This document shows, one piece after another, positions 1,143 to 22,400 of a stretch of DNA of 25,833 nucleotides. This DNA comes from a virus, in IMG/VR virus record IMGVR_UViG_3300010153_000096, positions 1 through 25,833 of that record; one strand, written 5' to 3'. Made by a program: the position numbers and the translations under genes. Positions within the stretch are counted from its first letter, which is position 1. Each line of letters begins with the position of its first letter. The notes beneath the pieces were generated by a model. The model was not told the DNA's origin. It was given only the letters and a program-made list of their open reading frames with translations, and did no database searches.

Positions 1143-2390
1143 ATGGCTGTGCAAAAACCTCCCATTCCTCAGGATCCTCAAACTGCAAAACAGTTGAGAT
1201 CATCTACTATGACTGGACCCCCGCTCAATCAGGTGGTGTGGGATCTTGATAGATCAACCCCGTTAGGAACTCTAAAGGCGATGATCCGTGAAAGGATGAG
1301 CCCAGAGGTCTTATCTGGAATTCGAGTCCAAGCAATGGTCGTAAGTAGAGCAGCCGGAGTCCCCCCAGTAGTCGAAACGATATATGGGGAAGGCGGCGGC
1401 GACCAAAATTTCCAAATGATCAGAGTAAGGGTTATTTCTGATTCTCGCCATTACTGGATGCCTCAGCCACAAAACCCCCAGGATCCAACAGCGGGATTTT
1501 ATCCCGTCATTAAGCATGATCTAGCTAAAACTCAAGGACGCCAGCTTGAATGGGGTCAGTTTGTAGAGGTTCAATTTTATGATAACAAAACCCAATTCAC
1601 CAGTCATATGGAAGTAGGGGACACTGTTAGTCTTTTGCCTTCTTCGTATTTATCAGATTATGCAGATTCTTATTCTGACCAAACTAAACACGGTTTTCTT
1701 GGCGCTAACTGCACGGTTGGTACTAAGCAAGTAACTCGTCTGGTAACAATAGGTCAACGCCAGGAAGGCGAGATGATGGTTCCTATCCAAGAGGAGCGAA
1801 CCGTAGTCACACAAACTATTGAGGGGTGTGGAAAAGTTGAACAACTGAAAGAACATGATATGCCTGAGCCCGACCCAACTGCCGCAGGAGAAAAGGTGAA
1901 GCTTTTCTGGCCTAGTGCCTTCGAGGGGGAAGTGACCGGCGGCGGCGGATGGGCACCGGCAAGAACCATCAACGGCAAAACTAGACCTCATAAAGGAGTA
2001 GATATTCGTGCTCTCTGGGGCACTCCTATATTTGCAGTATTGGATGGTAAGATAAAACATAACATAAATTCAGGCGGACCCGGTAAGGGTTTCGGTTATT
2101 ATATCACTATGGCTCACGGAAAGTATTCTATTTCTCCCGGTGCCGCCCCAGTTAACATATCTACTATCTATGCCCATTTACAGAACCCGTCAATTGTTCC
2201 TATCGTAGCCGATAACGCCGTAGTTAAGAAGGGGCAACTCATAGCCATCTCCGCAGCATCAGGCAGAATCGTCCCGGCGGGACCCAGTGGGGCTCACTTA
2301 CATTTTGAAATTATAGTTGATAGCTCAAAAGTGGATCCGGAACCTTTTCTTAAAAATGGTTTATACCGACCACCCGGAGGAGCCAGTTGA
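1143..2390 (+). CDS. baseplate hub/puncturing protein with M23 endopeptidase
   Basis: This 415-residue protein has two parts. Residues about 1-250 form a virion-type domain (LDRSTPLGTLKAMI near the start, then beta-rich sequence) that plausibly anchors it in the baseplate hub, perhaps like the OB-fold part of T4 gp5. Residues about 258-408 are a peptidase family M23 (LytM-type) domain, which cuts peptide cross-links of peptidoglycan. All expected zinc and catalytic positions are visible: H283 and D287 in PHKGVDI, H345 in YAHL, and H385/H387 in the HLHFE motif. The domain opens with the usual glycine-rich beta turn (VTGGGGW, 264-270). There is no signal peptide, so it is more likely a tail-borne lysin acting during DNA injection than a secreted lysis endolysin. 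The next gene, a spike-like protein, overlaps its stop codon, which supports a hub role. The peptidase call is firm, while the hub placement is inferred from the neighbours. Confidence 0.85.
   Translation: MAVQKPPIPQDPQTAKQLRSSTMTGPPLNQVVWDLDRSTPLGTLKAMIRERMSPEVLSGIRVQAMVVSRAAGVPPVVETIYGEGGGDQNFQMIRVRVISDSRHYWMPQPQNPQDPTAGFYPVIKHDLAKTQGRQLEWGQFVEVQFYDNKTQFTSHMEVGDTVSLLPSSYLSDYADSYSDQTKHGFLGANCTVGTKQVTRLVTIGQRQEGEMMVPIQEERTVVTQTIEGCGKVEQLKEHDMPEPDPTAAGEKVKLFWPSAFEGEVTGGGGWAPARTINGKTRPHKGVDIRALWGTPIFAVLDGKIKHNINSGGPGKGFGYYITMAHGKYSISPGAAPVNISTIYAHLQNPSIVPIVADNAVVKKGQLIAISAASGRIVPAGPSGAHLHFEIIVDSSKVDPEPFLKNGLYRPPGGAS
2376..2382 (+). promoter_or_regulatory. strong ribosome binding site choosing the 2390 start
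   Basis: GGAGGAG sits 7 bases before the ATG at 2390, within the 3' end of the M23 gene. It favours ATG 2390 over the in-frame TTG at 2387 as the spike-gene start, and it forms a TGATG stop/start overlap. Confidence 0.75.
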
Positions 2391-3292
2391 TGATAGGTTT
2401 GAATGTAGTAGCAGCGTTAATTGGAACGGCAAAAGAAAACGCCCAAAATTCAGACGGACCAGCCCAAGCTCGCAATAAAAGCGGGTTTCTGCACCAAGAG
2501 ATATTAGAGCCTATTCCGCACTATAACCAAGCACCATCTGAAAGTATAATTAAAGGCAAAAGTAATACTATCATTATTATGGGTCGGGATAGACCCGGAG
2601 ATGAAGGAACCGGAAAAGGTTCCACCGCTGCTACTCATGTGGGTTGTATTGATATTATTGCCGGAATGTCAGGTATGCAGGCTCGGGAAGTCAACACTGA
2701 AGGTAAGAAAGTGCTTACTAACAAAAACGTGTGGCTAGACTCGGCAAGGATCTATATTTCACAGCGAGCAGATATTGATTCGCCTGAGTACTTCAATTTA
2801 GCAGAAGGCAAGGTGGGAAATTTATCTAACCGGTCTGCGATTGCCATTAAAGCAGATTCCGTGCGCCTAATAGGGCGTGAGGGCATTAAGTTAGTAACAA
2901 GCGGTGATCAATATAGCGGCGGCGCTGGGCTTTTCATCGGTGATAATATCCAGGGCATCGATCTTATAGCTGGAAATAACGACAGTGATCTTCAGCCTAT
3001 GGTCAAGGGTGACGACCTTGCGATGCTATTAGATAATCTTATAGAGATTGTAGCAGATGTCCAGTCTACAGCCTCATTCAACCTTCAAGTGATCGCTTAC
3101 ACTATTGCTTCTTTTATAGATCCCACAGGTACCGCTCAAAAAAAACTACAGAGCCTGCTCGACCGAATGCCAGTTGAAGTAATTAATTTGGCGATCCAAG
3201 AATTAAACTTAGTATTCCACCAGTTAAACTACGACCCTCTCAACCCTTGGGCATACTATAATTTTCGCAGTAAACATAACAACGTAAACTAA
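2390..3292 (+). CDS. baseplate central spike-like protein
   Basis: The product is 300 residues from ATG 2390. A TTG one codon earlier is open but less likely given the ribosome-binding-site spacing. The N-terminal half has short beta-rich segments typical of phage spike or needle proteins: the stretch SIIKGKSNTIIIMGRDRPGD, then THVGCIDIIAG, then AIAIKADSVRLIGREGIKLV. The glycine-turned, alternating hydrophobic pattern suggests a trimeric beta-helix. A 'LQPMVKGDDLAMLLDNLIEIVADV' type helical segment follows at about 200-225, of the kind seen next to spike domains. The C-terminal ~70 residues are helical and end in an aromatic stretch (NPWAYYNF). In T4 the lysozyme and needle are one polypeptide, gp5. 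Here the needle is separate but coupled to the peptidase gene by a TGATG overlap. The spike assignment combines sequence style with context and has not been checked by structure prediction. Confidence 0.7.
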   Translation: MIGLNVVAALIGTAKENAQNSDGPAQARNKSGFLHQEILEPIPHYNQAPSESIIKGKSNTIIIMGRDRPGDEGTGKGSTAATHVGCIDIIAGMSGMQAREVNTEGKKVLTNKNVWLDSARIYISQRADIDSPEYFNLAEGKVGNLSNRSAIAIKADSVRLIGREGIKLVTSGDQYSGGAGLFIGDNIQGIDLIAGNNDSDLQPMVKGDDLAMLLDNLIEIVADVQSTASFNLQVIAYTIASFIDPTGTAQKKLQSLLDRMPVEVINLAIQELNLVFHQLNYDPLNPWAYYNFRSKHNNVN

Positions 3293-3302
3293 GTAACATA
3301 TT

Positions 3303-6300
3303 ATGGCTTTAACTGAAAGACAGAAAAATATTATCAACCCATATCCTCAAAATATTGAGGGCGCTCCGACATTTGAGTGGTACAACACTTTAGATAATAA
3401 ATTTGTTCTTGACGCTATTCACGAGAGTTATATATATTTTTTGACTTTCCCTAGTGTCGGAACCGATTTGATAGGAAAAGATAGAAGCATTACAGCAGAA
3501 GATTACACCGCTTATTTTGCACTTTACCCCCAGAACGGTAAAATACAAAACAACCAAGTTGTAACTATATCGGTGGACGAATCCAAGCAAAAACTCAGAA
3601 ACGTTGTCACGAGCCTCCAGCAAGCCGAAGTATTGTCAAAATACACGACCAACACCACAGAACTCAGTAGGCTACCTGAATACGAGGATGATCAGAATAT
3701 AGCTAAACTGATAGCAATACCGCAGAATAATTCCCTTCCATATCGCAAACAACTAAGAAGATCCTTGGGTTTGTCCGACGAGATATTGACCGAGACCTCT
3801 GATGTGACACAAATGCTGGATTATGTTCCAGAGGTGAGTGTTTTTATAGGTTCTGATAGCAACGTAGACCTTTATGATTGGCGAGAGAACTGCCTTCCTG
3901 GACAGCAGGATTCTAGAGTTTACTATAATAGTGTGGATAAGACATATTATTTTACCCGCCGCACAGACTCTTTAAGATATCAAGACTTTGCGTTAGGTTT
4001 TGGACGTGGGTCCCAAACTGCATTTAGATATTCTCAAGAGCAACAACAGCAAGAATTCTCTGATGAAGAGCGGCAGCGTCAACTCGCACAAAGCTGGTTT
4101 AACCTAGAAAACGTCGGCGCAAATTCCGCTAAACAAAATTATCAACAAGCCTATGATCTAGGTGTAAAGCAGATACTCAAACTTACTGGTCGTTATTCCG
4201 AAGAAAACACAACCTCAGTTAAAACAGAGCTTGGGGTACCCCCTGCGGCAATAAGTACATACTGGGACATAAGACCCGGCTCTAAATGGTGTTATGCCGT
4301 CAAAATACCAGCTTATATAATCAGTAAACTCCCTCAGACAGTCGCAGATGATAATAGACCATCTTATGAAGAAGACGAACTATCGCCCCTTCAAAAATCT
4401 CAAATCTTGATAAATACCACACCCGGCGACGAGCCTCATAATCTCACTGCCTTCACGGCTGACTTTAAAATAGATGATCTCTTTCGATATATGGTAGGAG
4501 CACGAGAGGTATTGAACGACTGCGGCACCCAATTACATAACGAAGACGTCCCACCAGACGTAATTTCTAATATATCTATCGACAAAGAGAGGGGGAATAC
4601 ATCATCTCTGTTTGATATGATATCGGAGTTTTACACTTATAATAAGCTGGCAATGGAGGATGATGATCTCATAGAATTTTGTTTGACAGAAATCTATGGT
4701 CTGGACCATATTATAATAAATGGAAATTTTTATTACAGAGGAGCCGGTAACAGAACTTATTTAAGACCGACGGAAGTGGTTGCCCAAACCCTTGATGCCT
4801 TTCCACTTACTACGGCGACTACTTGGTCAATACTTCGAAATTGCTATGAAATGTATCAGGAGAGTAGAAATACTACACCTGATACTCGGATGCCAGCTAT
4901 AGATTTTTTAACTAAATTTTTGTACCCCAAGGTTGACAGAGAAAAATATAAAAATTTCATCCTGGATAAGTCATCCACAACGACTCGCCGAGACCGCCGA
5001 AACGAAATATTCACAGTGTTGAGTAGATTGTCTCAAACTCCTCCCGAGCAATTCGAAGAACTTTGGTCCAACCGAGAACTATCTTATAAAGTTGGTACAA
5101 CGCTGACTGGACTCAATTGCGATACGGGACAGATGTTGAGGGCCAAACAAGCTCTAAAGTTTTGGCAAGCAGCACAATCAAAGACAAAATGGAGATCGCT
5201 AATACGAGAAACGGTCTTGATTCTTCGGAGTGAGATAATAGATGACGCTTATGCTCGTGAGGCACTGAGATTGGGTGCTACAGGGCTCACAAACCCTGCT
5301 CGGATGAGAAAAGAGATAGAACTATATGTTGATCAACAAATTTCTTGCTCACTTGATGTGGTAGGAGACTTTTTAGAGAAAGGCGTTCTGGATCCTCTTG
5401 GTGTGCCCCCCGTCGCCGGCCGGTTAGTCCGAACAACCTTGAACCAACCCCTGAAGATAAATCTTAAAAAAGCCCCCATGGCATCAGCAAAATCCAGACA
5501 ATCAACACTATATCGCCAGATGATTAAGACTATTTTACAGAGTTTTATAAAATCTCTAGTTGCCGGCGTGGCAAAAGATATATTGACTGCGTTGCTCGGC
5601 TGCGATACCGACGGTAATCAGCCAAGGTTTGGCGAAGACGGACCTAATACAAGCCTAGCAAACCCTCTAAAAAAATATGATTTTGGCTTCGCTGATCTCC
5701 GAGATATGGTAGAGGATGTAGATCTAGTTAGCCTAGCTCGTGGGGCTGATTTTGACAAGAGACCCCAGGGTGAAGATCTCCCAATAACAGAAAAGCAGGT
5801 GCTGCAATTTATAAAAGATACCTCCGAGATGTGTACTCCAATGGAGTTAGAAAGACTTTTGAGCGGTGATTCTTCTGGTAAGGTCTTAAGTCATTTATTG
5901 GAGATTCAATCTAATAATTCTACACATTTTACTGTTCCTGTTTCTCTCATACAAAACGGCGATAACCTCGACGAGGTAGTCTATGAAACTATTAATCCTC
6001 GGGCATATAGTCATTTTGTAATAACTAGAGAAAGTTTGATTGACTTTTATGTTTCTTTGGGACAAGCCCTAGAAGGAACAGAATCCTTAGGCGAGCTTCC
6101 CTTTAACTCTCCGTTGGAAGCATATTGTGCAAAAAAAGAACAACCCCTTACGAGACTTAAATTAGAAGTTTCGAACGAGGATTTAGAAGCACAGTATTTT
6201 GAAATAGTAGCCGATAAAATAGCAAGAATAAACAATTTGTGTGGTTGGCTCAGGGACGCCTTACAAATTCAATTAGAGATGCAGAGATTGATAGAGAACC

Positions 6301-8867
6301 TTCCTTTTATGGGGTGGTATAATGATTTTATAGAATTTATTGCAAAACTTAGCAACTGGTTTGCTGATTGGATGGCATCGTTATGGGAAGATGATGTAAG
6401 TAAGTCCCTCAATTCACATCCTGTGGGTAAATATAATATCTATCATACACAATTAGGACAAGAAATCATATATCAGTGTTTTTGGGCGTTGCGAGATATT
6501 CCAATCAGTGAAATATGGGTTAACGGGTCGGATAAACCTGCTTTTGTTACTCCTACCAACTATATTTCTTCAAAAACTCTTCTCTTCGCCGAAAACGTCG
6601 ATGACGAGACCATGCAATCAGCCGCTTCATTTATCGAAACAGAGAGTGCTCAAACAGCAACTCACGTTCACCAATTCATATGGAATGGTGGCGATGCTAA
6701 ATCCCAAAGAGAGCACAACAACGCCCACGGTCCCCGCCGCTTACGATTCCCCCAATACCGAGCATCACCTCAGGCTGAATATGAGTCCTGGGACTTTTCT
6801 TATTATTCCCTCCGTAATGCCCCCCATGCTCTAGAGGCTTTATATGATAGTGTGGATAAAATCTCTGAACCCCCTATAAATCCTGGCCAAGCCCGATCGG
6901 CCGCAGAGCGTCTCTTTCTGAGTGATATTGCTAGGGTAAACAGAGATTATCTATTCGAACAATCCCGTGGTGAAGGCTGGACTGGCTATACTTGGCTTCG
7001 TTGTGATGGTGGTCCCAGTGCTAATATTAGAATATATTTCCGGGAAGTCGGCGATGGTGGCCACCCAAGGTCTTTAGCCTACTATACACCACGAGGGAAC
7101 TTATATAAAGAAAGTACCACAAAATATAATGTTGGTGTAAATGGAGATTTAGACAGTGTAGACTATAGGATATTTGATAGATTAGAAGTCCCAACCGTCC
7201 ACTCTCCTACAACTATAATATCAGTAAGGGATGGCCATACTCTGTATGTGGGCAATGGAAACACTGAAATTCGCCTGCCAAGATTAGCGCATGCTGATAC
7301 CCAGCGAACTTATGGTAATTTTTCCGTAGGTCTCGCTACTACAATGATCCAGGCTGATAATCCAGGTCCCGATTATTCCACACGCCAAACTCAAGAAGGC
7401 GGTCAAGGACAGAATCTCGTTTCTATGAATAATTTCAGTCTTCGTACAGACGAAACCCTCAACAGATCGATGGTTACGCCCGACGGCAAAAAATCCTTCA
7501 GGAAGTATGTCAGAGCGATTAACCTTGGTCCTTTTAAATTATCTGATGATGACTGCATTGACAGAGAGGACAGAAATAAGGCAGATGCGGCTGTGGCATC
7601 TATCCAAACCAGATTACAAGCATTCTTTTTAAATGTTCTGCCTCTGAGAACGGTTTATCCTAATTGGGGCGCTTTGGGCACAACACGCCTTATAAGTGAT
7701 TATTTGACTAACAAAACTCTGGAGCAGTTGTCCACGGAGCCAGAACTCTGGGGTGCGTGGCAGGAATCATTCAGATACATAAAACTGGTATACCCCCATC
7801 TAGAAGAAGAAGAATATAAGAATAATCCTATTATTGAAGACAGTCTGTCCCCTCGAAATAACCTGCGTAACATTATAGAAGCCATGTACTTGTCTATGCT
7901 CAGCAAAATGGACGAGTCACTAGGTAGACCTAGTTTGAGGTTGTCTCCATTTGAGGCAACCCAAGCCAACTATTCTCGCTATCGCAAAACCCTAGGATAT
8001 TTCTACCGAGGTATGGTCAGTGCCATAAGCCCAGGCGCTGGCCCTGGAAGACAGACCGATCATTTTGGCATCGCCGAGGCTGATGCTCCCGCAGTGCGAG
8101 CTTTGCTTATGCAGTGTTATGTTTTGCAAAATAATGAAGTTTCCGATGTCACCGATCTGGGTATGTTATTGGGCGCTTACTATTTCCCAATTGCATTTCA
8201 GATCGCATCGTATTTGATGTATTACGATTATGGATTGAAATATGCTGAGCGGTTTAGTATTACAAAAGCTCGATTACTGGCTGAGATGGGTGCGGTTGAT
8301 GATGGGCTTCTCACAGCACTTAGGGGCGGTAATGTAACAAAATATAGTGATAGGTATATTGGGTTCCCGGCAGACGTTGACTCCTACCTCGATGAAGAAG
8401 GACCTTTGAAATATTATCAGCGGAGTGAGGTACTGGAGAGAATTGCTTTCTTGGATAGAACATACTTGACTCCTAATCCCGATACTTGGAACGGAAAGTT
8501 TGTCATAGCGTACAGACCATTGATATCTGATTTTGGACATTATCAACGCCAAGGAAATCAACTTGCTCAGACGATCGCCACCATCGCCGCCTTTCAGGCG
8601 ATGGGTGCAAGGCAGCAAGGTGTTTCTCCTACTGTAGGAGCCCTTGTAACCGGCATTATTGCACGAAATGACCCTGAGGGAAGTATTTTAAGGGCGTGGG
8701 CACTAGCATATCAAGCTGGTGTGATTCCTACAATAAGTAGCGTGTATGGATCTGATGAAATATTTTTCGATACAACATCAGAGATTAGAATACTCAGAGA
8801 TGAGACGATTGCTGCAATCTTGGAAGAGAAAAGTGAGTTAGAAACCCTAATTAACCCAGGTGGATAA
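3303..8867 (+). CDS. giant 1854-residue presumed baseplate protein, function unknown
   Basis: One uninterrupted reading frame encodes 1854 residues. I do not recognise a domain along it. What can be seen: a Q/E-rich charged stretch near residues 245-265 (SQEQQQQEFSDEERQRQ); and a helical, hydrophobic segment at about 740-765 starting at M740, flanked by basic residues. A tryptophan-rich amphipathic segment follows at about 1002-1030 (W1005, W1019, W1023, W1028), then long tyrosine-rich beta/loop regions. The C-terminus is partly helical with alanine-rich stretches (AQTIATIAAFQAMGARQQG). There is no signal peptide and no convincing transmembrane helix. The start lies 10 bases after the spike gene without a clear Shine-Dalgarno, and the gp25-like gene follows 7 bases later. 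The position between spike and wedge genes implies a structural baseplate or hub-linked role, perhaps replacing several smaller T4 hub or wedge proteins. That role is inference from context only. Confidence 0.8.
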   Translation: MALTERQKNIINPYPQNIEGAPTFEWYNTLDNKFVLDAIHESYIYFLTFPSVGTDLIGKDRSITAEDYTAYFALYPQNGKIQNNQVVTISVDESKQKLRNVVTSLQQAEVLSKYTTNTTELSRLPEYEDDQNIAKLIAIPQNNSLPYRKQLRRSLGLSDEILTETSDVTQMLDYVPEVSVFIGSDSNVDLYDWRENCLPGQQDSRVYYNSVDKTYYFTRRTDSLRYQDFALGFGRGSQTAFRYSQEQQQQEFSDEERQRQLAQSWFNLENVGANSAKQNYQQAYDLGVKQILKLTGRYSEENTTSVKTELGVPPAAISTYWDIRPGSKWCYAVKIPAYIISKLPQTVADDNRPSYEEDELSPLQKSQILINTTPGDEPHNLTAFTADFKIDDLFRYMVGAREVLNDCGTQLHNEDVPPDVISNISIDKERGNTSSLFDMISEFYTYNKLAMEDDDLIEFCLTEIYGLDHIIINGNFYYRGAGNRTYLRPTEVVAQTLDAFPLTTATTWSILRNCYEMYQESRNTTPDTRMPAIDFLTKFLYPKVDREKYKNFILDKSSTTTRRDRRNEIFTVLSRLSQTPPEQFEELWSNRELSYKVGTTLTGLNCDTGQMLRAKQALKFWQAAQSKTKWRSLIRETVLILRSEIIDDAYAREALRLGATGLTNPARMRKEIELYVDQQISCSLDVVGDFLEKGVLDPLGVPPVAGRLVRTTLNQPLKINLKKAPMASAKSRQSTLYRQMIKTILQSFIKSLVAGVAKDILTALLGCDTDGNQPRFGEDGPNTSLANPLKKYDFGFADLRDMVEDVDLVSLARGADFDKRPQGEDLPITEKQVLQFIKDTSEMCTPMELERLLSGDSSGKVLSHLLEIQSNNSTHFTVPVSLIQNGDNLDEVVYETINPRAYSHFVITRESLIDFYVSLGQALEGTESLGELPFNSPLEAYCAKKEQPLTRLKLEVSNEDLEAQYFEIVADKIARINNLCGWLRDALQIQLEMQRLIENLPFMGWYNDFIEFIAKLSNWFADWMASLWEDDVSKSLNSHPVGKYNIYHTQLGQEIIYQCFWALRDIPISEIWVNGSDKPAFVTPTNYISSKTLLFAENVDDETMQSAASFIETESAQTATHVHQFIWNGGDAKSQREHNNAHGPRRLRFPQYRASPQAEYESWDFSYYSLRNAPHALEALYDSVDKISEPPINPGQARSAAERLFLSDIARVNRDYLFEQSRGEGWTGYTWLRCDGGPSANIRIYFREVGDGGHPRSLAYYTPRGNLYKESTTKYNVGVNGDLDSVDYRIFDRLEVPTVHSPTTIISVRDGHTLYVGNGNTEIRLPRLAHADTQRTYGNFSVGLATTMIQADNPGPDYSTRQTQEGGQGQNLVSMNNFSLRTDETLNRSMVTPDGKKSFRKYVRAINLGPFKLSDDDCIDREDRNKADAAVASIQTRLQAFFLNVLPLRTVYPNWGALGTTRLISDYLTNKTLEQLSTEPELWGAWQESFRYIKLVYPHLEEEEYKNNPIIEDSLSPRNNLRNIIEAMYLSMLSKMDESLGRPSLRLSPFEATQANYSRYRKTLGYFYRGMVSAISPGAGPGRQTDHFGIAEADAPAVRALLMQCYVLQNNEVSDVTDLGMLLGAYYFPIAFQIASYLMYYDYGLKYAERFSITKARLLAEMGAVDDGLLTALRGGNVTKYSDRYIGFPADVDSYLDEEGPLKYYQRSEVLERIAFLDRTYLTPNPDTWNGKFVIAYRPLISDFGHYQRQGNQLAQTIATIAAFQAMGARQQGVSPTVGALVTGIIARNDPEGSILRAWALAYQAGVIPTISSVYGSDEIFFDTTSEIRILRDETIAAILEEKSELETLINPGG

Positions 8868-8874
8868 ATAAACT

Positions 8875-9279
8875 ATGAGCAAACTACAAGGCATATCTGT
8901 AAAGCTCCCGCTAACATATGACCCAGCGGACGGTCCCTATTTGTTAAATAAGACTCTAGGGGAAACCATAAAACAAAACCTTAGAATGCTTATTCTCACT
9001 TCCCCTGGGGAAAGAATAATGGATCCGGACTTCGGCGTGGGAATGAGGAAATTTTTATTTCAATCTGTCGGCGACGAGACTTTTTCCCTAATTGTTGAAC
9101 AAATTAAAAAACAAGTCGCAGACTATATTCCCGTTGTCAATTTAAAAGAAATACGTTTTGTTACTAGTGATGAAGACTCTACAATTCCGGCAAATCAAGT
9201 ATTAGTAGCTATTAAATATAGTATAGAACCGTATGATACAGAGGATGAGTTGTTAATAACATCGTCATTGACTACTTAA
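8875..9279 (+). CDS. gp25: GPW/gp25-family baseplate wedge protein
   Basis: At 134 residues this matches the length of T4 gp25 and P2 gpW relatives, which sit at the inner wedge and help initiate sheath assembly. The family signature is clear at residues 44-62: SPGERIMDPDFGVGMRKFLF, equivalent to the usual 'PGER...PxFG.G...L.F' block. After it come a helix (LIVEQIKKQVADYIP) and a beta strand of the VLVAIKYSI type. The lead sequence LPLTYDPADGPYLLNKTLGE fits the N-terminal extension seen in T4-type members. The start is 7 bases after the giant gene's stop, with AGGTGG about 11 bases upstream. The gp6-like gene follows 19 bases downstream, in the conserved W-J order of contractile tails. No lysozyme activity should be assumed despite old naming of this family. 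Confidence 0.92.
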   Translation: MSKLQGISVKLPLTYDPADGPYLLNKTLGETIKQNLRMLILTSPGERIMDPDFGVGMRKFLFQSVGDETFSLIVEQIKKQVADYIPVVNLKEIRFVTSDEDSTIPANQVLVAIKYSIEPYDTEDELLITSSLTT

Positions 9280-9298: not shown

Positions 9299-11095
9299 AT
9301 GGCAAAAAGACCTATAAATTATACCAGCAGAGACTTCCAAACAATCAAAAATGATTTGGAAAATTATGCTAAGAGATATTATCCTACAACATTTAAGGAT
9401 TTTAGCGAAGCTTCGTTTGGGTCTTTGATGCTGGACATGGTTGCGTATGTTGGCGACCAATTGTCATTTTATGCCGATTTTCAAGCTAATGAAAGTTTTT
9501 TAGATAGTGCAATTCGTTATGAAAATATTGTGAGACTATCAGAAACTTTGGGATATAAACATACCGGAGCAGCCCGCTCGACTGGCTTGGCTACATTTTA
9601 TATTTTAGTTCCCGTCGCAGCAAGCTCCCGATCACCGGATACAAATTATTTACCTATTTTGCAGGCTGGTACAACTTTATCGGGCGAAAGTAATGCTATT
9701 TTTACTCTCATTGAGGACGTAGATTTTGCTAACCCATCCAATGAAATAACAGTTGCTCGAACTAATTCTACGACAGGTAATCCTACCTTTTTTGCGGTCA
9801 GAGCATCAGGACAAGTTGTTTCAGGACAAAAATTCTCAGAGCAGATAACCGTCGGAAACTATCAGAGATTCCTGCGTCTTCGGTTGGAAAAAGATAATGT
9901 AACTGAGATTATTTCTGTCACCGACTCTCAAGGGAATGAATATTATGAAGTAGAACACTTATCTCAAGATATTGTGTTGTCACAAATTACAAATACTGAC
10001 TCTTCTACACGAGACACTGTGCCTTATAATATTCGCACTAAGCCTGTTCCTCGGCGATTTGTAACAGAGTTTGACACTTCAGGAAATACTTTTATTCAGT
10101 TTGGCTATGGGTCTGCTGATAATCTTACCAGTAATCTAATCGCTGATCCAGCGGATGTAGTCTTGAACGTTGATAGTAAACCATATGTTACAGATCAGAC
10201 ATTTGATCCTACGAACTTGATAAAAACGGATAAATTTGGGGTGGTTCCCGTCAACACTACATTGACTGTAAATTATACCGCCAACACATCGGACACTTCT
10301 AATGCTTCTGTGGGCACTATCAATACAATTATAACTCCACAGTTTCGCTTCAAGGACCGTTCAATTCTTTCTGAGACCACAATCTCTACTATGGTGGCAG
10401 CTATAGAAGTCGATAACGAAGAACCAATCTTAGGCGATACAGCAATTTTGAGTGGCGATGAAATCAGGGCTCGTGCTTTTGGAACTTTTGCCTCCCAGAA
10501 CCGTGCTGTTACTAGAGAGGATTACATTAGTCTTGCGTACCGTTTGCCTCCTAAGTTTGGCAAAATCAAAAGAGTCAATGTAGTAAGAGACGAAAAATCG
10601 CTAAAAAGAAACTTGAACTTATATATTTTAGCAGAATCTGGTAACGGGTCTTTTGCGCTGCCTAACACCGTGCTCAAGGAAAATGTCAAAACCTGGCTTC
10701 AGCAATATAAGATGATCAACGATACAATAGATATTTTGTCGGGTCGGATAATAAACTTTGGCATTCGCTATACAATTATTGCCGAAATAGATCAGAACAA
10801 ATTCGATATTTTAGAGAGTTGCACACAGAAACTCCAAGAAGAATATCTCAATGTAAAGCTAAACTTAGGCGAGCCAGTATATTTATCAGAGATTTATAAG
10901 CTCCTTAATCAGGTACCAGGGGTTATAGATACCACAAATGTAGAATTGTATAACCTTGTTGGTGGTCGTTACAGCGACTACGCATATGATATTACTTCTC
11001 ATATGTCTCCTGATGGTAGATACCTAGTGGTGCCTCAAGATGCTGCCGCAGAATTGCTCTTTCCCGGCACTGATCTCGTGGGAGTAATAACATAA
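9299..11095 (+). CDS. gp6: T4 gp6 / baseplate J-like wedge protein
   Basis: The 598-residue product matches T4 gp6-type wedge proteins, which form the inner ring of the baseplate and link the gp25-like protein to the peripheral wedge. Residues about 5-75 carry the characteristic start: INYTSRDFQTIKNDL, then FSEASFGSLMLDMVAYVGDQ, then a FYADFQANESFLDSA block. The central part is beta-rich. The baseplate-J core is visible around residues 402-430 (RAVTREDYISLAYRLPPKFG followed by RVNVVRD). Then come a VKTWLQQYKMINDTIDILSG segment and a C-terminal EPVYLSEIYKLLNQVPGVID stretch, both typical of this family. T4 gp6 is 660 residues, so the length is near normal. GAGG lies about 12 bases upstream. The next gene begins 1 base after its stop, indicating tight co-expression. 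Confidence 0.92.
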   Translation: MAKRPINYTSRDFQTIKNDLENYAKRYYPTTFKDFSEASFGSLMLDMVAYVGDQLSFYADFQANESFLDSAIRYENIVRLSETLGYKHTGAARSTGLATFYILVPVAASSRSPDTNYLPILQAGTTLSGESNAIFTLIEDVDFANPSNEITVARTNSTTGNPTFFAVRASGQVVSGQKFSEQITVGNYQRFLRLRLEKDNVTEIISVTDSQGNEYYEVEHLSQDIVLSQITNTDSSTRDTVPYNIRTKPVPRRFVTEFDTSGNTFIQFGYGSADNLTSNLIADPADVVLNVDSKPYVTDQTFDPTNLIKTDKFGVVPVNTTLTVNYTANTSDTSNASVGTINTIITPQFRFKDRSILSETTISTMVAAIEVDNEEPILGDTAILSGDEIRARAFGTFASQNRAVTREDYISLAYRLPPKFGKIKRVNVVRDEKSLKRNLNLYILAESGNGSFALPNTVLKENVKTWLQQYKMINDTIDILSGRIINFGIRYTIIAEIDQNKFDILESCTQKLQEEYLNVKLNLGEPVYLSEIYKLLNQVPGVIDTTNVELYNLVGGRYSDYAYDITSHMSPDGRYLVVPQDAAAELLFPGTDLVGVIT

Positions 11096-12580: not shown

Positions 12581-15500
12581 ATGAGCAGTATAAAAAGTTT
12601 ATACCAATCTAATCGAGAAGGTATAACCATAAGCAAGTATCTTAAGGCGAGTTCTCCTAGTGAGCTTGGAGAAGGGATAGAGTCCCAAGAGCACCTAAAA
12701 GCTCTGAGCAAGAAGAAAGAATATTTCTTACCACCCATCGACTATTCAGACCCAGAGAATTTTGTCAAGTTTGGTTCGGCAGAACAATATTACAAGAACG
12801 CCTTTGAATATATTGTTAGTTACTATCCTTATGATGGCTCTTCTTTAGAGAAGACCCAATTTTATAACAATATCAACCCTCTTGAAAAGTATACACTAGA
12901 GGTTACGTATCCTCGGTCCACTGGATTCGTGACTATTGGATCTCCATACGGAACCAAGCCCACTCAAACAGAATACTCTACTTCATCTGGGTATTATTCT
13001 TCATCTTTGGATCAATACATACAAGTCAAGGGTGGACCACATAAAAATACTAAATTCAACGTTGGCAAAAATAGAACTTCAAATTTGCAATTTGGCGGTG
13101 TGAGCGGATCTAGTGTAGAATTCTTTTTCCAGAAAAACAATCTAATAGATTCTGGATCGGAGTCTCCTAACCAAGTTATTTTTGATATAAACAACGCCCA
13201 ATCTGATGCCACCGCAGAAGACTATGGAAGATTCAGAATAGAGATCATCTCCGGGTCCGAAACTCAATTTAGGGTGACAATGCTCTCTGGGACAAACGGC
13301 TTTGAGAACGTTATGGTTCCTTCGACCCCAGACCAAATAGCAATATCTGATGGAACCTGGAGAAACTTTGGGTTTATATTTGATACTTCTGAGAATCTAG
13401 GAAAATTAGATTTCTATATTAACGGTAAATGTATCGAGACCAGTATCCCATCTAACGGAGCAGGTGGAAAACTTGTCAACGAGGTTACAGGTACGCTAAT
13501 AGGTAATATAGGCGCTTTGCGTGGAAACACAAAAGCAACAACCTTACTTACTGAGGGTGCGGGAAAATTATCTGCATCGTTAGATGAATTTCGGTTCTGG
13601 AAAACGGCTCGAACCGCTGAACAAATTGGCAGGTATTGGTTTACCAATGTTCAGGGCGGTAGCGACAATTATGATGCAAATGTTTCCCTTGGAGTATATT
13701 ATAAGTTTAACGAGGGATTGACCCTAACATCTAGTATAGATCAGGTGATGCTAGACTATTCTGGTCGTGTATCTAATGGAAACTATGTGGGATACAACTC
13801 AACATATTCTAGAAGCACAGGTTCAGCTATAAATTCTTTGGGTTTAGAGTCGGTAAGCGAAAGGGGCTCGCCAATCGTAAGAAAGCGTAATCCTCTTTAT
13901 ATATCGGCGAAGGATTCCTATGAACTGACGGGAAGTAATTACGACTATTCTAATTCGGGGCGACTTATAAATCACTTGCCAGCTTGGGTAACTGAAATGG
14001 AAGAAGCAGGCGGCAATGAGATCTTGGGTTTGACTCAGATCATGTCGTCTTATTTTGATACTCTCTATAATCAATTGACCGCACTTCGGCAACTTAAATA
14101 TAACAAATACATTAGTGGAAGTCTTACTGATTCCATTGATGAGTTTACCTACAATGACCGATTGATTGATAATATGGGTATTGCTACTCCTGAATTATTT
14201 GAGAATATCGGCGTGCTCGGACAGTTTTTTCAAAGGGATGAAAAAATCAATTTCGACCAACAATTAGTTGACATAAAGAATTCTATCTATAAAAACATAT
14301 ACAACAACCTAACATATATCCTTAAGTCCAAAGGAAACGAAAAAGCAATTCGTAACTTTATTCGATGCCTTGGGGTAGGAGAAGAGATTCTGGCACTCAA
14401 TACTTACCCAGACAATACAGATTATGTGCTGAGTAGTAGTTACCAGACATCAGTAAGTGCTAAAAAATTCGCTGATTTTACCTCTTTGTTATATCAAGGG
14501 GACAGCGAAGCAACAGCGTATCAATATTATGACTCAAGCAATGCAAACTCGGTAGGTGTTATCAGTGGCTCAATAAGCGGCTCGGATGACCAAGGTCAGT
14601 TTGCGTTTACTTTGCAAGGGGACTTTGTTTTCCCCAACAAAGATAACCGATTATCCCTTTCATATGACCTACCTTCGGTAATTTCATCTTCTTTGGTCGG
14701 CTTTCACATCCCAGAAGATACATCGCCCGATTCGACTGAATTGACTTGGACCGGATCTGCTGCTGATTATGGCTTGCAATTATACGCTGTCAAGAAACCC
14801 GGCGACTATGCGGAAATTATAGCACCTTTGGATAGGGTTAAAGATGCTTACTTTGTAGTGGAAGATAGAAATGGAACGGTATATCTTACTACTGATACAT
14901 TTACTAACGTTTATGATAACCAAAGATGGAACTTTTCTTTGTCTCTTAAACCTAAAAAATATCCATTTAGTAGCGGGCTCCCTGGCGCTTCGGCTTCTAA
15001 CTCTACTTATGAACTCCAGCTTTATGGAGTAAACTATGATACTGGAATAAAGAAAAATTCATTCACGGTTTCTAGTGATCTTTCTAATCAATCAGGTATG
15101 AATATCCTGAAAAGCACCAAGCGTATTTATACCGGGGCACATAAGATAAACTTCACGGGATCTACACTAAACAAGTCAGATGTTAGAGCTTCTAGCATAA
15201 GATATTGGACCGATTATATAGCTCCATCAGTGATAGATATGCAGTCTAGGCATGTTGACTCATATGGCATCAACCGTCCGTCAAGAAATGCTTACCTGTT
15301 TCAGACCGGAAGTTTGAGTGTGGCAATTCCCGCCGCCCAAACTTTAGCCCTTAACTGGGATTTTGATAATATTACGGGCAGCAATGATTCAGGTCGATTC
15401 ACCATCGCTGACGCTTCTTCTGGTTCAGTAGGTTCTTCGTATCCCGCAAACTATCAAGGACCTTTCTTAAGTAATATAAACCTTCGACAGCATACGGGTC

Positions 15501-16384
15501 GAGGAGACTTTTTCACAGCAAACTCGACACCTGTGCGCAAAGAATATCTCTACACTGAAAAAATGATCCCAGCGGAATACACTGCCCAAGATGATATGGT
15601 TAGGGTTCTATCTACTGATGATAAAGCGTTCGCTAGTTTCCGCAAGCCGAGCAGTACTTATTTCGCAGTAGAAAAAAGTATGTACAGGGGCATCTCAAAT
15701 CGGATGTTACATCTGTTTGCTTCCATAGATGAATTTAATAACCTTATCGGTGAACCTGTCAATAAATATCGTTTGAATTATAAGGCAATGGAGAAAATGA
15801 GAGAAATTTTCTTCCGTAAAGTTCAAAATGATATACCTAGTATTCAAAAATATTTAGACTATTACAAGTGGCTTGACAGTGCCATGGGACAAATGATAGA
15901 GCAATTGTTCCCGGCATCGGCAAGGTATGCGCCAAGTGTTCGTAATATTATAGAAAGTCACACTTTAGAGCGCAACAAATACCAACATAAATATCCTATC
16001 CTAAAGGATTCTCGTGCTATAGCTAGAAGCGGAATTGTAGGTGAAGTTGGCGGCTCTAATACGCCCCTGGGTGTCGAGGGAGATCCTCACTATCCTAGTA
16101 GCTATGGACCTCAGAGACCTTCGGACGACAATCCTGGCAACCAGGCTGGGGAGGGTAATAACGGTCAGCAAGATGAAAACGATCCAAATTTTGAGCGTAA
16201 CCTGCGAGACAATCCACCCGGAGAGAACGACGACAACGGCGGCGATGATGCGCCTACGAGCAGATCGATGTCCCCACCACCAGAGCGCATCGACCCGAAC
16301 CAAGGTCAGCAAGGCGGCGGCAACAATCCAGGTATCGGGCAAGGACAAGGCGATGACTTTGACCCAGGTATGGGATTCGGATAA
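12581..16384 (+). CDS. LamG-domain wedge protein with gpI-like segment
   Basis: This is a 1267-residue multidomain protein. Residues about 155-410 look like a concanavalin-A/LamG fold: VEFFFQKNNL, DGTWRNFGFIFD, LDFYINGKC, then SLDEFRFWKTARTAEQIGRY and GVYYKFNEG, the standard LamG_3-type progression. Residues about 440-610 contain a helical segment (LPAWVTEMEE, LTQIMSSYFDTLYNQL) and the KNIYNNLTYILKSKGNEKAI block (from about residue 571) followed by RNFIRCLGV. That block recalls the 'KGT..ai..ll..lG' core of P2 gpI-type tail proteins. The middle is beta-rich. About 1040-1140 is helical and ends in SHTLERNKYQHKYP. Residues 1151-1267 form a disordered Gly/Asn/Pro/Asp-rich tail. The order gp25, gp6/J, (insert), gpI-like matches P2-type tails, so this may be the outer wedge or fibre connector. 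The LamG call is firm; the gpI relation is tentative. Confidence 0.8.
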   Translation: MSSIKSLYQSNREGITISKYLKASSPSELGEGIESQEHLKALSKKKEYFLPPIDYSDPENFVKFGSAEQYYKNAFEYIVSYYPYDGSSLEKTQFYNNINPLEKYTLEVTYPRSTGFVTIGSPYGTKPTQTEYSTSSGYYSSSLDQYIQVKGGPHKNTKFNVGKNRTSNLQFGGVSGSSVEFFFQKNNLIDSGSESPNQVIFDINNAQSDATAEDYGRFRIEIISGSETQFRVTMLSGTNGFENVMVPSTPDQIAISDGTWRNFGFIFDTSENLGKLDFYINGKCIETSIPSNGAGGKLVNEVTGTLIGNIGALRGNTKATTLLTEGAGKLSASLDEFRFWKTARTAEQIGRYWFTNVQGGSDNYDANVSLGVYYKFNEGLTLTSSIDQVMLDYSGRVSNGNYVGYNSTYSRSTGSAINSLGLESVSERGSPIVRKRNPLYISAKDSYELTGSNYDYSNSGRLINHLPAWVTEMEEAGGNEILGLTQIMSSYFDTLYNQLTALRQLKYNKYISGSLTDSIDEFTYNDRLIDNMGIATPELFENIGVLGQFFQRDEKINFDQQLVDIKNSIYKNIYNNLTYILKSKGNEKAIRNFIRCLGVGEEILALNTYPDNTDYVLSSSYQTSVSAKKFADFTSLLYQGDSEATAYQYYDSSNANSVGVISGSISGSDDQGQFAFTLQGDFVFPNKDNRLSLSYDLPSVISSSLVGFHIPEDTSPDSTELTWTGSAADYGLQLYAVKKPGDYAEIIAPLDRVKDAYFVVEDRNGTVYLTTDTFTNVYDNQRWNFSLSLKPKKYPFSSGLPGASASNSTYELQLYGVNYDTGIKKNSFTVSSDLSNQSGMNILKSTKRIYTGAHKINFTGSTLNKSDVRASSIRYWTDYIAPSVIDMQSRHVDSYGINRPSRNAYLFQTGSLSVAIPAAQTLALNWDFDNITGSNDSGRFTIADASSGSVGSSYPANYQGPFLSNINLRQHTGRGDFFTANSTPVRKEYLYTEKMIPAEYTAQDDMVRVLSTDDKAFASFRKPSSTYFAVEKSMYRGISNRMLHLFASIDEFNNLIGEPVNKYRLNYKAMEKMREIFFRKVQNDIPSIQKYLDYYKWLDSAMGQMIEQLFPASARYAPSVRNIIESHTLERNKYQHKYPILKDSRAIARSGIVGEVGGSNTPLGVEGDPHYPSSYGPQRPSDDNPGNQAGEGNNGQQDENDPNFERNLRDNPPGENDDNGGDDAPTSRSMSPPPERIDPNQGQQGGGNNPGIGQGQGDDFDPGMGFG
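16031..16381 (+). other. disordered acidic C-terminal tail of the LamG protein
   Basis: Codons 1151-1267 of the 1267-residue gene encode a low-complexity, mostly acidic tail rich in G, N, D, P and Q, for example GEGNNGQQDENDPN, GENDDNGGDDAPT and GGGNNPGIGQGQGDD, ending in FDPGMGFG. The DNA here is visibly more G+C-rich than its surroundings and poor in stop codons in other frames. A flexible linker or an assembly/attachment tail is plausible. Confidence 0.65.
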
Positions 16385-16418
16385 TGAACATATAAACCGT
16401 AAAGAGACTAGTTACTAA

Positions 16419-19400
16419 ATGGCAAACAGGACAATAATAAGCACGCTACCTCCAGACCCCTCAAGCAGGATCATTGGTGGCTCCAACCAGAGAAGCGCAC
16501 ACCGCCTAAATTTGCAAGGTGGTAGCGGATGGCAGTATAATCATCATCCGGTCGATAATGATCAATCTAAAAACCCGTTGTATTGGCAATCTGCGGCACC
16601 TCGGTTTGACGCTCCTTTGTCTTCTTCCGGTGACGTATTATATACCCGCCAGGCTATACAGAGAGCGAGACTCCGAGAGGTCGAGCGCCAAAGGGTTGTG
16701 TCTTATACCTTTGATTTGCAACGACCGATTGGCTCAAGTAATCAAACCTTTAATAAAAAGCCAAGAATTCGTGACATTACTTTTGATGCCTTCGAGCCCG
16801 AACTGGATATTACCACAACTACTGCGCCGAATATCAAGAAAAGAATTTCATTCAGAGCCACAAAAGATCAGATTGCGTATAACGGTGAAAATATAACACC
16901 ATTCAGTGTATTTAGCTCCAGTGTCACAACAGGATACCGAGCCGAACTAGTTTCTTCTGGTCTTTCAAATGTTGATTTAACCAATTTCCATACGGATAGT
17001 GTACTGCCTTATGGAAAAGCCACTCCTATGCAGGGACCATTTACAGAGAAATATGTAGGCGGGGTCCAAGCTCGTCACGTCTCACCGTTTAGATCGAAGG
17101 ATAGACCAGAGGAATACGATCTAACTATTACTACTGGCACCGGGTCCCTAACATCGATTACCACTAAAGCACACACCGCTAAGGGTCAATATTTGCGAGA
17201 CTCTGGCGCAAAGGCTCCCATAAACATTAAAAACATAAAAACACTATTCACATCTGATAGTGTTCGAATTGTGGGGAATTATACTCGTAACTACGAAGTA
17301 GTCCAGGGGAATGATCGTAATGCTACAAATATCGATTTTGCCTACAATGCTGCTAATTATGCGTACACGGCTCCTACCGCTTTTTTGACCACACCCGCTA
17401 TGCTTGCTTTGGGTCGTTCCGGCTCTGCCGATTATCCGGCACCTCGACAGATAGCCTCTCGAAAGATTAGCCAAACAATTATCGCAGGAACTTTTGCTGC
17501 CCCAGGCTCTAAACAGGATTCAAAACAATTGTTTAGGGACGTTCGGTCTAATCAATTTTCTCCTAACTCTGTCCTTCCGTATCGAAATTGGGTAGTCCGA
17601 CAACCTTTTAATAAAAACTTAGGAACCCATGTTACACGAGGTGGGTATCTGAGTGATGAGCCGGGCATCCCAGCGAGGATAAAAACTCAACGCAATCAAA
17701 CTGATAGGGTTCAAATTTTGTCTACCGCTCCTGTTGCTACTTATCATACAGGAACTTTTTACGATACAGCCTTTGTTACTCGTCCCGTGCCTGCGGGAGA
17801 TAGTACTCAGTGGTTTATGGCAACGTCTGGTTCTGATACTTCTAATTATAGTGATTATGTTCTAGCTGGATCTAGATATCCGGCGGATATTTCAATATAC
17901 AAGTCTACCTTACCACCATATTCCCCTGCGGTTGCTGGTGCTTATGCCAGTGCTGTCCTTGTCTTCACTAATACTAGTGAAGCTGACGCTAATACTAAAG
18001 ATTTCGTCCTTATTGATAACTCCGAAACTCCAGCTACAGTTAGCTTCCACGCCGAAGCTGGCCTGGACTTGAATAAGAATTCAAGAGCAGGCGCAGTAAA
18101 ATGGAGCTTTGGTGTATCGGGTATGAGCACATCGGCAGAATTTTTGAATACTGTCTCATTTGCTATAGCATCTGCAAGTGTTGCTGGTGATTTATCTATA
18201 TTTCCTCTTCTTTCTTCTGACCCAGCAATGCAAATAGGTCAAATTATGGCTGGGGCCGGAGGTAATACGGTCATCACAGGAACTTTAGTATCTTATGGTT
18301 ACTTCTTCGTTGACGGCGGCTACGGGTTTGCTGGGGGTGTAGATTCTGAGGCTGCCTCTGGGTTTGTGGCAGGAAAATCAGGTTATACTTATATCGACGG
18401 GAACACAAGGTATATCTGGGCAAATTCTCCTTGGGTGCCCTGGACCCAAACCCGCTTAGGGTCAAAGAATGAAGCTTTATATTACAAAAAGAACAATATT
18501 TATCAGTTTGATCCAGATGTCACCCTTGGGAGTTCTTATAAGCTGTCCGAGCCTCAACAGACCACTTTAGGCTCCACTTTGTCCCGAACGATTACAGATC
18601 AGGCAGGTAACACAAGAACATCTTTTTATTCCAAACAATATGTTGAACCACCCGTCACTTCCAGGTATAAGCCGTTGGTTCACCAAATCGAAACCTTTGT
18701 AGGGACTCCTTCTTCTACGAGTAAGGATAAGACAGTCCTAAGTTTAGAATACGCTTACGGCAATTCTTTGATGGGCTTTACTAATAAAGAACTAAACAAT
18801 TCTTTACTAGGAAATTTGAAAGCGTTCCAGGGAAAAGTAAAGCGCCCCTATGAAGTATTGAGAGATCAGCTTTCTGGGCGCTCATCTCGTGCTGCAAGTG
18901 GGATACACCAGATAAAAATGTTCTCCTATGGGGAAACAATTTATCCCAAAGAAAGATATACATTTCTTTCTGGTACCCGAACAAGATTATCTTTTGCCAA
19001 TGATTTCTGGCGAGATGATATAGCCGTAACATCGCCTCTTATTCAGCAGCTTAACTTTTATGCCTACCGCTTAGACAACTCTTGGGCACGTGGTGAAGCC
19101 CGCACTTATAACCGACAATATAATCGACTCAAGAGCCCTTTTGTAAATTCTCAGGGTATGGAACTGGAAAATGCGTGGCAAGGTCCCTACAATACTGTTA
19201 ATCCCTATTACTATATCATGTCTGGTTCCGGTACTGGTTCTATATGGCCTATGGACTCTTTCCTGTGGTCAGATGATATTAAGAGCTATGCGACTGTACT
19301 AACAGGTACTTGGCAGACGCCTGTAATATTGGCAGACCAAGCCACTCTTCCGGCTGGGGAGTTGATGTCTGTCAATTATGGACCTTTGAATGATCGTAAT

Positions 19401-22400
19401 ACTGATTATCCTTTATCTAATAATGATGGAAGCAGTAGTTATAATACTGGAAGTTCGGAATCCTATTTTGGACTCCCTGTGAACGCTCAATATGTGTATA
19501 GTGTTCCGTTTGTTACAGGTAATCTTTTCGACGGGTATCAGCCCGAGCCTCGCAGTCCTGGTGATGTCTATTCACGCCCGGCATGGACGGCAGGCAGTAA
19601 GAGGAGATACGTTGACGGACCTTTGAAGGGTGAGTTATCTACTAAAATATACCCTTTTTATGATACTTATGAGAAGTATGCCGAAGATGTTCGAGTTATT
19701 GGTCGTGACTATGGCATCGTTCCGGAATTTCGTGTAAGTGAGAATATATCAACTTATCAATCTAATACTACTCCATTCGCTTTAGTTTCCGCAAGTCTTG
19801 AAATTACGGGAGCGTCCCTAAATTTATTCAACGGAACATCGCCAGGATTTTATTCAAGATATGCCATAACAGACGATATGGAATTTTTGAGTGATTTCCT
19901 ATCTTATGAAAAGAGTAATCCTAATTATATTTTCAATAAATTTCCTAAGCATTTTGAGCTAAGTTCTGAGGCTGTTGTTAAGCTTTTGCCTTATGACGGA
20001 TTTTACCCCACCAAGAGAACTGTTCAATTAGCAGGCTTATATTCTCAGTCATACGGGCATCATGCAGCATATAGCGGTGTCGATGCTTCGGGTAGTTCCG
20101 CCTGGCGACCATTATTGCGACCGTTTTTTGCCCCAGGTATCATGTATAATTCTATCAAATCTGGAATAGCTGTAAATTATCCTATTCGCCGAGCTACCAA
20201 GAACAATGACGCATTTCAGGTTTATTCTTCAATAAATTACGCAACGCCAGTCTGGTACCCTACACACGGTATTTGGATCGACCCTGCGCCTTATATGATA
20301 GGTACTCCATTGTTTGGTTGCCTTAATCAGGATTTGGTACTTTCGGCTTCCCTATATAATGGTGTTTTGCCTGACAACTCCCGCCGTGCCAGGGGTTCCG
20401 GAAGTTGGTCTGGAAGTATCGATACGGATAATTTATTTTGGGCAGATAAGTTACCTTTTGAATCTATAATAAACCCCGAAGAATATTTAACAGCAAATAG
20501 TTATGGAACTTTTGCTTCTTCTTCTGTATATGAGGAAGGTCCTTCTGGTTCTCTTCCAATCGTATCAGCAGACAATAACGTCTATGTGGAACAAAAAGTA
20601 ACAGCATCTTTTGCCCCCGCCGCTAATATTTCGAATCTGTACAGTAAGGCTGTTTCAAACTTTTTGGCAAATGTCCCTCAGTTTTTCCTAAAGAGTAAAC
20701 CCAACAAATATGGTACTCCTGGTCATTTGACCAAGTTTGTATCTCAGTTCGGAGCAGTACCTAAAGGGTCTCAGGAAACCAGCGCAGCCACGAGGACAGT
20801 GGCGGCAAAAGCAAATGCTGCGTATATGATGGAGGTTGGTCTGATGCAAACAGATCAATTCAATATGTACAGCAACCCTCATGCTTTTGGTATGCCCACC
20901 AATGTCAGCAACCTCACTGGCAGTTGGGATCTCATCACCAAAGCTGGCGGAGCCGTCCCTCAAGGTGCTAATTGGCCTAGACACCGAGGCGAGTTCGCCC
21001 CATTTGCCCCGCCGTACTATTATGGACCGTCTTTAGTTCGCATAACATTTATGCCAACTTCTGATGGGGAGTATACTTTGAACGAGATTATCAACAATAC
21101 TAAGGGCGAGGTATTTGTTGATTACCTCAATGAGAGTAGTAGCTACTATGATGTACAATCTGGTTCGTTCTATAATAGAGAAGGGATGCGTATAGAAACG
21201 AACAGAACACCATCTTACCAGTGGAACCGAGCGTGGCTTAACCGGATGGACATCGATGCTTCTGTTACTATTGGTAATGAATTTTCTTTAGGCAAGGGCG
21301 CAAAATATAAATCATCTGACCCAAATAAGTGGACTATTATGACCAAATGGGAATGTCCAGCTTTAGATTTCCCAGATCACATTGGAAGCTCAACTTCTGG
21401 AACTCCTTATTCTTTTTCTTCTTCTGTTACTCCAGGTGAATATACACAGCCTACTGTAGGGATGTGGCACCAGTATGGGCAAACACCACAAGACAATAAG
21501 GGTATTTATCTTTATATAAAAGATATACCAACTGGAAACGATGAGGAGTATGATAGAGTTTTCACTTATCATAAATCTCAAAATCTTGGCACCAATCCAG
21601 TTTACTGGCCTAAGGGAGCGGACTTTGGGCTGATTAGCCAAGTTAGAAAAATCCCATCTTTCGTAATAGAATCTGGTCGTGAAGTGCTTTCTTTGGCTGA
21701 CTTGTGCGGCTTTGATGAGGACGAGATCATCAGGAAAGGCTTCGACCCCTCTAAGGCTAAGCGAATTGGTGAATTGGCTGACGATAATAAGTCTTCTATT
21801 TCTGAAGCAGTAATTGCAATGCCATTTTATTTAGATGATTCCGGAACACCCCGCCTGGTCAATCTCCAGGCTCCTGCTAATAAGTTAGGACCCAAGATAA
21901 AAGAATTCAGAAGAAGCTTTACTAAGTATTCTCTACCCCCAGCCTTGGCTCAAAAATTAGTAGGCTTAGTCCCGCAAGGATATCCTAATATTCCTAATTA
22001 CATTAATCCTTTTGGTGGCGATGATTATGATCAAATCTTGTCTGGAGAAGATATCAATCAAATACCTGTCATTTATTTGATGGAACACAATGTCACTCTG
22101 ACCAAGCAGGATCTTGCGGATATTTGGCAAGGAATAATGCCTGATTTTGGAACTAAGATAAAGTTTAGCTTTTCAGCTATAGATCATTATATGCCGGGAG
22201 ACAAGGTTGAAACCAAAGCATCCCAGTTCCCGGAAATATTGAAAGAACAGATCAATCTTGGGGCTGTCAGAGACGGTCATCCAAGGTATGACTTGTTGGA
22301 TATAGCAGAAAAATGCAACAAGGGCTTTACTCCAGATATCAAATGGCTGGTATTCAAGGTAAAACAAAAAGGGTTATCGTCTTATTCTGAAATGATTATA

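Follow-up and report, generated by a model that had tools for sequence, protein, structure and literature searches.

A giant protein family encoded between the spike and gp25 genes in a phage lineage known from metagenomes

The spike-to-gp25 junction in described baseplates and in the window

The general view of contractile baseplates is that they have a small conserved core in common. In the structures of phages A-1(L) and Milano, the space from the spike and hub to gp25 and gp6 is filled by a LysM adaptor together with wedge helices (PMC10966104; PMC10811340), and this adaptor, the T4 gp53/BW4 protein (gp16 in A-1(L)), lies between the hub and the wedge, where it packs on gp25 and the wedge helices (PMC10966104). 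The A-1(L) hub carries endoglucanase and peptidase (PMC10966104), and in the Milano baseplate disulfides link known wedge, hub and sheath proteins (PMC10811340). The DNA analyzed here, a 25,833-base IMG/VR fragment that we call the window, encodes a protein of 1854 aa, termed BIG, at the junction of the spike and gp25 genes (3303..8867, on the plus strand, as are all features of BIG and its neighbors given below).

Upstream of BIG lie a hub/spike enzyme with a peptidase M23 domain (1143..2390; Pfam PF01551, 2.2e-15) and a spike-like protein (2387..3292). The latter had no family match, and its role was read from its sequence, by repeats recognized by eye, and it has syntenic homologs; its likelier start is the in-frame ATG at 2390, which has GGAGGA upstream, and the TTG start listed for this gene is probably unused. 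Downstream are the gp25 sheath-initiator/wedge protein (GPW_gp25, 8875..9279; PF04965, 4.7e-13) and the gp6 wedge protein (9299..11095; PHROG 219, 3.6e-20, with a profile match to gp6 of PDB 9f4a). BIG did not match the wedge families gp6, gp7 or gp25 in PHROGs and Pfam, and gp25 and gp6 are separate neighbors. The first gene of the baseplate module is late-sigma-factor-like (140-835; PHROG 234, E 0.012), as it is in most relatives and several outgroups, and upstream of the module in the L016 contig (L100:1-20000) a long series of same-strand ORFs of ~300 aa lies ahead of this sigma gene.

The giant gp7 of the T4-like cyanophages P-SSM2 and S-SM2 resembles BIG in that it is very large and adjoins gp25 and gp6. 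However, it lies downstream of gp6, and the gp7-like position is held here by p8-p10. A profile of the BIG N-terminal region found nothing in P-SSM2, although some of the family's true distant members escaped this profile too. The wedge genes p9 (1267 aa, Laminin_G_3) and p10 (2096 aa), in the region 12581-22709, form a single ORF in L003, L004, L005, L007 and G024 (3706 aa) and are split elsewhere in L008, indicating that fission or fusion is common in the baseplate module.

A protein family at a fixed position

The BIG frame runs from the ATG at 3303 to the stop at 8867 without an internal stop. Its homologs are 33-40% identical across most of their length and share both the start site and the gene position, and in the best unsaturated pair of the family (L051/L052) omega was 0.106 overall. 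Since the homologs agree in start and position and dN/dS is low, a chance ORF is excluded; BIG is a real gene, uninterrupted and syntenic, and purifying selection acts on it in relatives.

Relatives were gathered with a gp6 profile, which provided 80 further IMG/VR loci, the best 80 of 575 relatives. Together with the window, 52 of these loci had both spike and gp25 present and a gp6 of at least 40% identity, and in all 52 of these intact loci (among the best 80 of 575 plus the window) the interval from spike to gp25 is filled by the BIG family. The interval has a median length of 6,012 bp (range 2,857-8,288 bp) and contains one giant ORF, two ORFs (L086/L088), or a 926-aa ORF (L090). Family members range from ~930 to 4,000 aa, the longest open frame, in one record, being 4,031 aa. 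Profiles from the window lineage and jackhmmer searches started from distant members join these syntenic ORFs into one family, and within the fetched loci the iterative profiles recruited nothing outside the syntenic position. We define the family as syntenic ORFs between spike and gp25 that contain the region described below as core 2, and the window protein is one of them. The family tracks one gp6 lineage, whose contigs reach 193 kb and are possibly incomplete.

Outside this lineage, BIG is absent at the position in the outgroups L009-L015, which have gp6 identities of 26-34%, include Flavobacterium phage immuto, Microcystis phage Mel-JY01 and LR756508, and are set apart in the gp6 tree by a branch with 100% support. 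Spike and gp25 are separated by just 314 bp in L009. Profile comparison showed no similarity between BIG and the small genes that precede gp25 in the outgroups, and the N-terminal profile found nothing over the whole outgroup records, the same profile having missed several true distant members. An 817-aa upstream gene of L011 and L012 was rejected as a relative of BIG, since its start, judged by eye, is ribonucleotide reductase-like.

The window protein gave no match of note in Pfam or PHROGs and none among PDB sequences, and tblastn with this protein and five relatives found nothing in 50,697 isolate-phage records. A pattern search for relatives with the single BIG protein retrieved none because BIG diverges fast. 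The titles and abstracts retrieved by literature searches contained no description of a BIG-like protein, and a scan of genome contigs provided two short binned contigs only, which gave no host assignment. The first-pass annotation had described an unassigned protein without known domain at a conserved baseplate position, which might define a new class if its homologs were confined to large phages. The position is borne out by the adjacency to gp25 and gp6 and by synteny in relatives, none of the Pfam, PHROG and PDB sequence searches gave the window protein a known domain, and the family is new in that it is unmatched among the isolate phages. BIG is a family without described relative in the collections searched and part of a known kind of machine. 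The giant protein family was previously undescribed, with no match among the isolate-phage records and PDB sequences searched, and annotators gain a family profile for a gene that is now labelled hypothetical.

Domain anatomy, conserved cysteines and inserts

BIG begins with an N-terminal domain (residues 1-190; 3303..3872) that carries the motifs QKNIVNP and AYxALYPQN, is kept in the window lineage, and is modelled by AlphaFold2 at a pLDDT of mostly 80-90. Core 1 (residues ~185-590; 3855..5072) is found by an iterative profile in distant syntenic members, and core 2 (residues ~690-980; 5370..6242) is common to nearly all members, including the shortest and the split ones. Conservation, identity and dN/dS delimit a hypervariable middle (residues ~1050-1390; 6450..7472), in which the structure model predicts a beta-rich domain (residues 1229-1324; 6987-7274). 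The C-terminal helical domain (residues ~1390-1710; 7470..8432) is conserved and confidently modelled, with no fold match. A comparison of this domain with the C domain in distant members did not establish homology (P 0.007, probability 5%). The C-terminal tail (residues 1711-1854; 8433..8864) is variable, and the last ~60 aa are 42% identical between the window and L002 despite gp6 proteins that are 86% identical. The C-terminal half of BIG evolves faster in several pairs, but not in all: omega in L051/L052 was 0.04-0.06 over residues 600-1200 and 0.16-0.19 beyond 1200, and L033/L034 changed in the same direction (0-0.15 over residues 400-1200 and up to 0.62 beyond), whereas L003/L005 had no clear gradient and other pairs were near saturation.

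The Foldseek comparison of predicted structures, which the first-pass annotation had proposed, was run on the two halves of BIG. For the N-terminal half, AlphaFold2 gave a mean pLDDT of 69 and a pTM of 0.47, with residues 570-630 and 683-790 poorly modelled; for the C-terminal half the values were 77.8 and 0.82, the beta-rich region being followed by a confident all-helical domain. Neither half had a match in the PDB at E <= 0.001, the N-terminal model being partly of low confidence, and the C-terminal half had none in BFVD at the same threshold. VIA-align returned unrelated or tied matches for both halves, with a top Z of 5.6, on helices. Phage internal virion proteins headed the list of viral folds for BIG and were rejected, since their E of about 0.5 is not significant. 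A missing fold match to these predicted models does not prove a new fold for BIG.

Cysteines stand out among the conserved positions. In an N-terminal alignment of 29 rows, four of the ten invariant columns are Cys606 (5118..5120), Cys767 (5601..5603), Cys942 (6126..6128) and Cys980 (6240-6242). Cys942 and Cys767, both in core 2, have the top conservation among widely sampled positions in the wider family (98% and 96%, respectively), and Cys606 and Cys980 are invariant and co-occur in the window lineage and are both missing in the three distant members that are readable at both positions. This pattern suggests disulfide pairs 606/980 and 767/942. As in Milano, conserved cysteines in a protein of the baseplate module could bond after lysis, the pairing in BIG being read from conservation. 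The 19-residue stretch with the highest hydrophobicity in the window protein (residues 748-766; 5544..5600) immediately precedes Cys767, and in 28 of 53 members, the window included, the peak over the full protein length falls at this same place. Its Kyte-Doolittle value is 1.43 in the window, where the stretch is amphipathic, reaches 2.32 in relatives, and lies between 1.6 and 2.3 in 18 of the 53 members. This segment may be a helix buried in an oligomer core or a helix of the inner membrane.

Some relatives carry peptidoglycan-binding modules within BIG. LysM scores above the Pfam cut-off in L027, L033, L036 and L042, and the same LysM sequence was recognized by eye in L034 and L041, giving six relatives in total; these inserts sit in the linker from the N-terminal domain to core 1. 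L064 has a PG_binding_1 domain (residues ~886-941) in the linker between core 1 and core 2. Neither module was found in the window protein. Matches of relatives' BIG proteins to endolysin and transglycosylase PHROGs are in fact LysM segments. The presence of LysM in some relatives is a likeness to gp53/BW4, but in BIG it is an optional linker insert that the window lacks, and the relatives encode a separate gp53-like protein; the window BIG does not show the gp53/BW4 arrangement, a small wedge protein consisting mainly of a LysM fold. BIG, as a putative tail-tip protein whose modules would meet peptidoglycan, also resembles tail proteins with cell-wall domains. However, unlike the A-1(L) hub it has no catalytic domain that we could find, and the M23 peptidase belongs to the adjacent gene.

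The inserts, the linkage to the spike gene and the hydrophobic segment fixed before Cys767, with values of 1.6-2.3 in 18 of 53 members, would all fit a delivered tail-tip protein, one that leaves with the spike, crosses the peptidoglycan, inserts a helix into the inner membrane and aids DNA passage. We nevertheless consider this rather unlikely: the window segment is only modestly hydrophobic and amphipathic, oligomer cores also contain hydrophobic helices, and in a relative two membrane-like segments are already present in the tape-measure candidate, a separate gene.

Homologs split into separate genes, for which the first-pass annotation had suggested a search, occur in three lineages, where BIG is carried as two adjacent genes, and a history of fission or fusion therefore exists. 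L086/L088 have proteins of 1566 + 513 aa encoded with a 26-base overlap, L055/L056 have a truncated first gene followed by 529/539 aa, and L006 and L069 have 664 + 648 aa and 734 + 711 aa, respectively. Core 2 is located in the first genes. Of the second genes, those in L086 and L056 correspond to the C domain found in distant members. The ones in L006 and L069 are similar to each other (probability 90%) and do not match that domain. On the gp6 tree, at least by its full branching, the one-gene and two-gene states have to change three times, the starred branches alone forcing one, and the tree places the L006/L069 lineage near the base of the clade with supports of 88-89, not starred. It is possible, judging from this tree, that the ancestral order was two genes.

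Canonical tail genes and the proposed role of BIG

The canonical tail genes were followed in relatives whose gp6 is 51% or less identical to that of the window, the window being a fragment without the hub cluster. The L052 contig (G024; 174,625 b), read through in order from fetched stretches, has a separate tail cluster with genes for sheath (PHROG 23, 9.8e-65), tube (PHROG 4542, 7.5e-26), a T4_baseplate-family protein (PF12322, 1.4e-14; PHROG 150 'baseplate hub'), a tape-measure candidate of 716 aa (proline 0.013, helical composition, two hydrophobic membrane-like segments) and a 114-aa wedge protein that is gp53-like (PHROG 7145, 1.2e-8; PHROG 232), for which the nearest PDB chain is A-1(L) gp16 (E 0.95). 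The gp53-like gene recurs in the BIG-bearing G018, G020, G021 and G026 and in the BIG-lacking W01 and W03. It is followed in G024 by genes for 886-aa and 427-aa proteins (L110:10088-14028; G024:C1:30088-34028) with nearly no assignments, and the 886-aa protein, which weakly matches PHROG 52 (E 0.0025), may be the hub. Because separate genes fit these roles in BIG-bearing relatives, BIG is, by these sequence assignments, neither the gp53 protein nor the tape measure, and there are other candidate genes for most of the T4-type inner proteins.

These data bear on the proposal of the first-pass annotation that BIG may be a fusion or replacement of several T4 hub and inner wedge proteins, for which gp53, the gp27 hub, gp26/28/51 and the like come into question. 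Its size and position would suit such a role, two of the three split lineages lie near basal positions in the gp6 tree, so that older genes might have fused, and there is precedent for a wedge-protein fusion in the BW4/gp53 of Milano and SPO1-like phages (PMC10811340). The proposal did not hold up well, since BIG-bearing relatives encode the gp53-like, T4_baseplate-family and tape-measure candidates elsewhere as separate genes, the split halves have no known domain, and BIG does not resemble, by profile comparison, the outgroup genes that occupy this position; we regard replacement as unlikely. A direct search with PF11246 (gp53) found no match in the window and 19 relative records and did match P-SSM2, but this null result is weak because the same model missed the relatives' gp53-like gene. 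BIG has no sequence match to gp27/gpD in PHROGs, Pfam or the PDB, and the fold search likewise gave no match, although BIG may still have a hub fold.

A tape measure in an unusual place could likewise be large, rich in helices and variable in length, with a hydrophobic segment. Given that the 716-aa ORF in the sheath/tube cluster of G024 has the expected features, that the middle of BIG is predicted to be beta-rich, and that BIG adjoins spike and gp25 and not the sheath/tube cluster, we consider this highly improbable.

We put at about an even chance the reading that BIG is an extra structural protein, confined to this clade, in the tail tip or baseplate, and not a substitute for the standard parts. 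Its fixed position, its absence in sister lineages, its coexistence with the canonical parts and its modular build favor this reading; against it, most members, the window among them, lack the peptidoglycan modules, which may be extras of particular lineages, and half of the N-terminal model, the hydrophobic helix included, is of low confidence. Its presence in the virion would follow from the gene neighborhood, BIG being encoded with spike, gp25 and gp6, and because the gene sits at this operon junction the protein would most likely be built in around the central spike and inner wedge, or between the two. Cores 1 and 2 would form a scaffold, perhaps locked by disulfides after lysis, with the variable beta domain and the tail exposed, and the hydrophobic helix would either be buried in an oligomer core or contact the inner membrane. 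The peptidoglycan-binding inserts of some relatives suggest that parts of BIG reach the periplasm, where at tail contraction they would meet peptidoglycan or membrane. That BIG is a new kind of tail-tip part specific to one widespread phage lineage, a giant released with the spike, gripping peptidoglycan through exchangeable inserts and opening the inner membrane with a disulfide-held core and helix, seems to us improbable. If BIG is an added component, then throughout a phage lineage seen in metagenomes the core has gained, at a fixed site, a protein that is among the longest in the virion module, and some baseplates would carry an inner component beyond what the T4, pyocin or A-1(L) structures explain.

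The rates of divergence within the module were compared between the window and L016, for which the identities were 80% for sigma, 69% for gp6, 65% for p8 and p9, 60% for spike, 53% for gp25, 46% for p10, 39% for BIG and 30% for the M23 protein. The faster divergence of BIG relative to gp25 and gp6, together with the sister lineages that lack it, could point to an assembly factor or peripheral scaffold for baseplate or fibers that is not a core part of the virion. We hold this to be distinctly improbable, since BIG is very large for an assembly factor, its tail-gene context is fixed and its relatives carry peptidoglycan-binding inserts. The M23 protein and BIG are the two fastest genes of the module, the M23 protein (1143-2390) being the fastest of all; in other lineages it is unrecognized at that position, where an ORF of ~370-830 aa is found.
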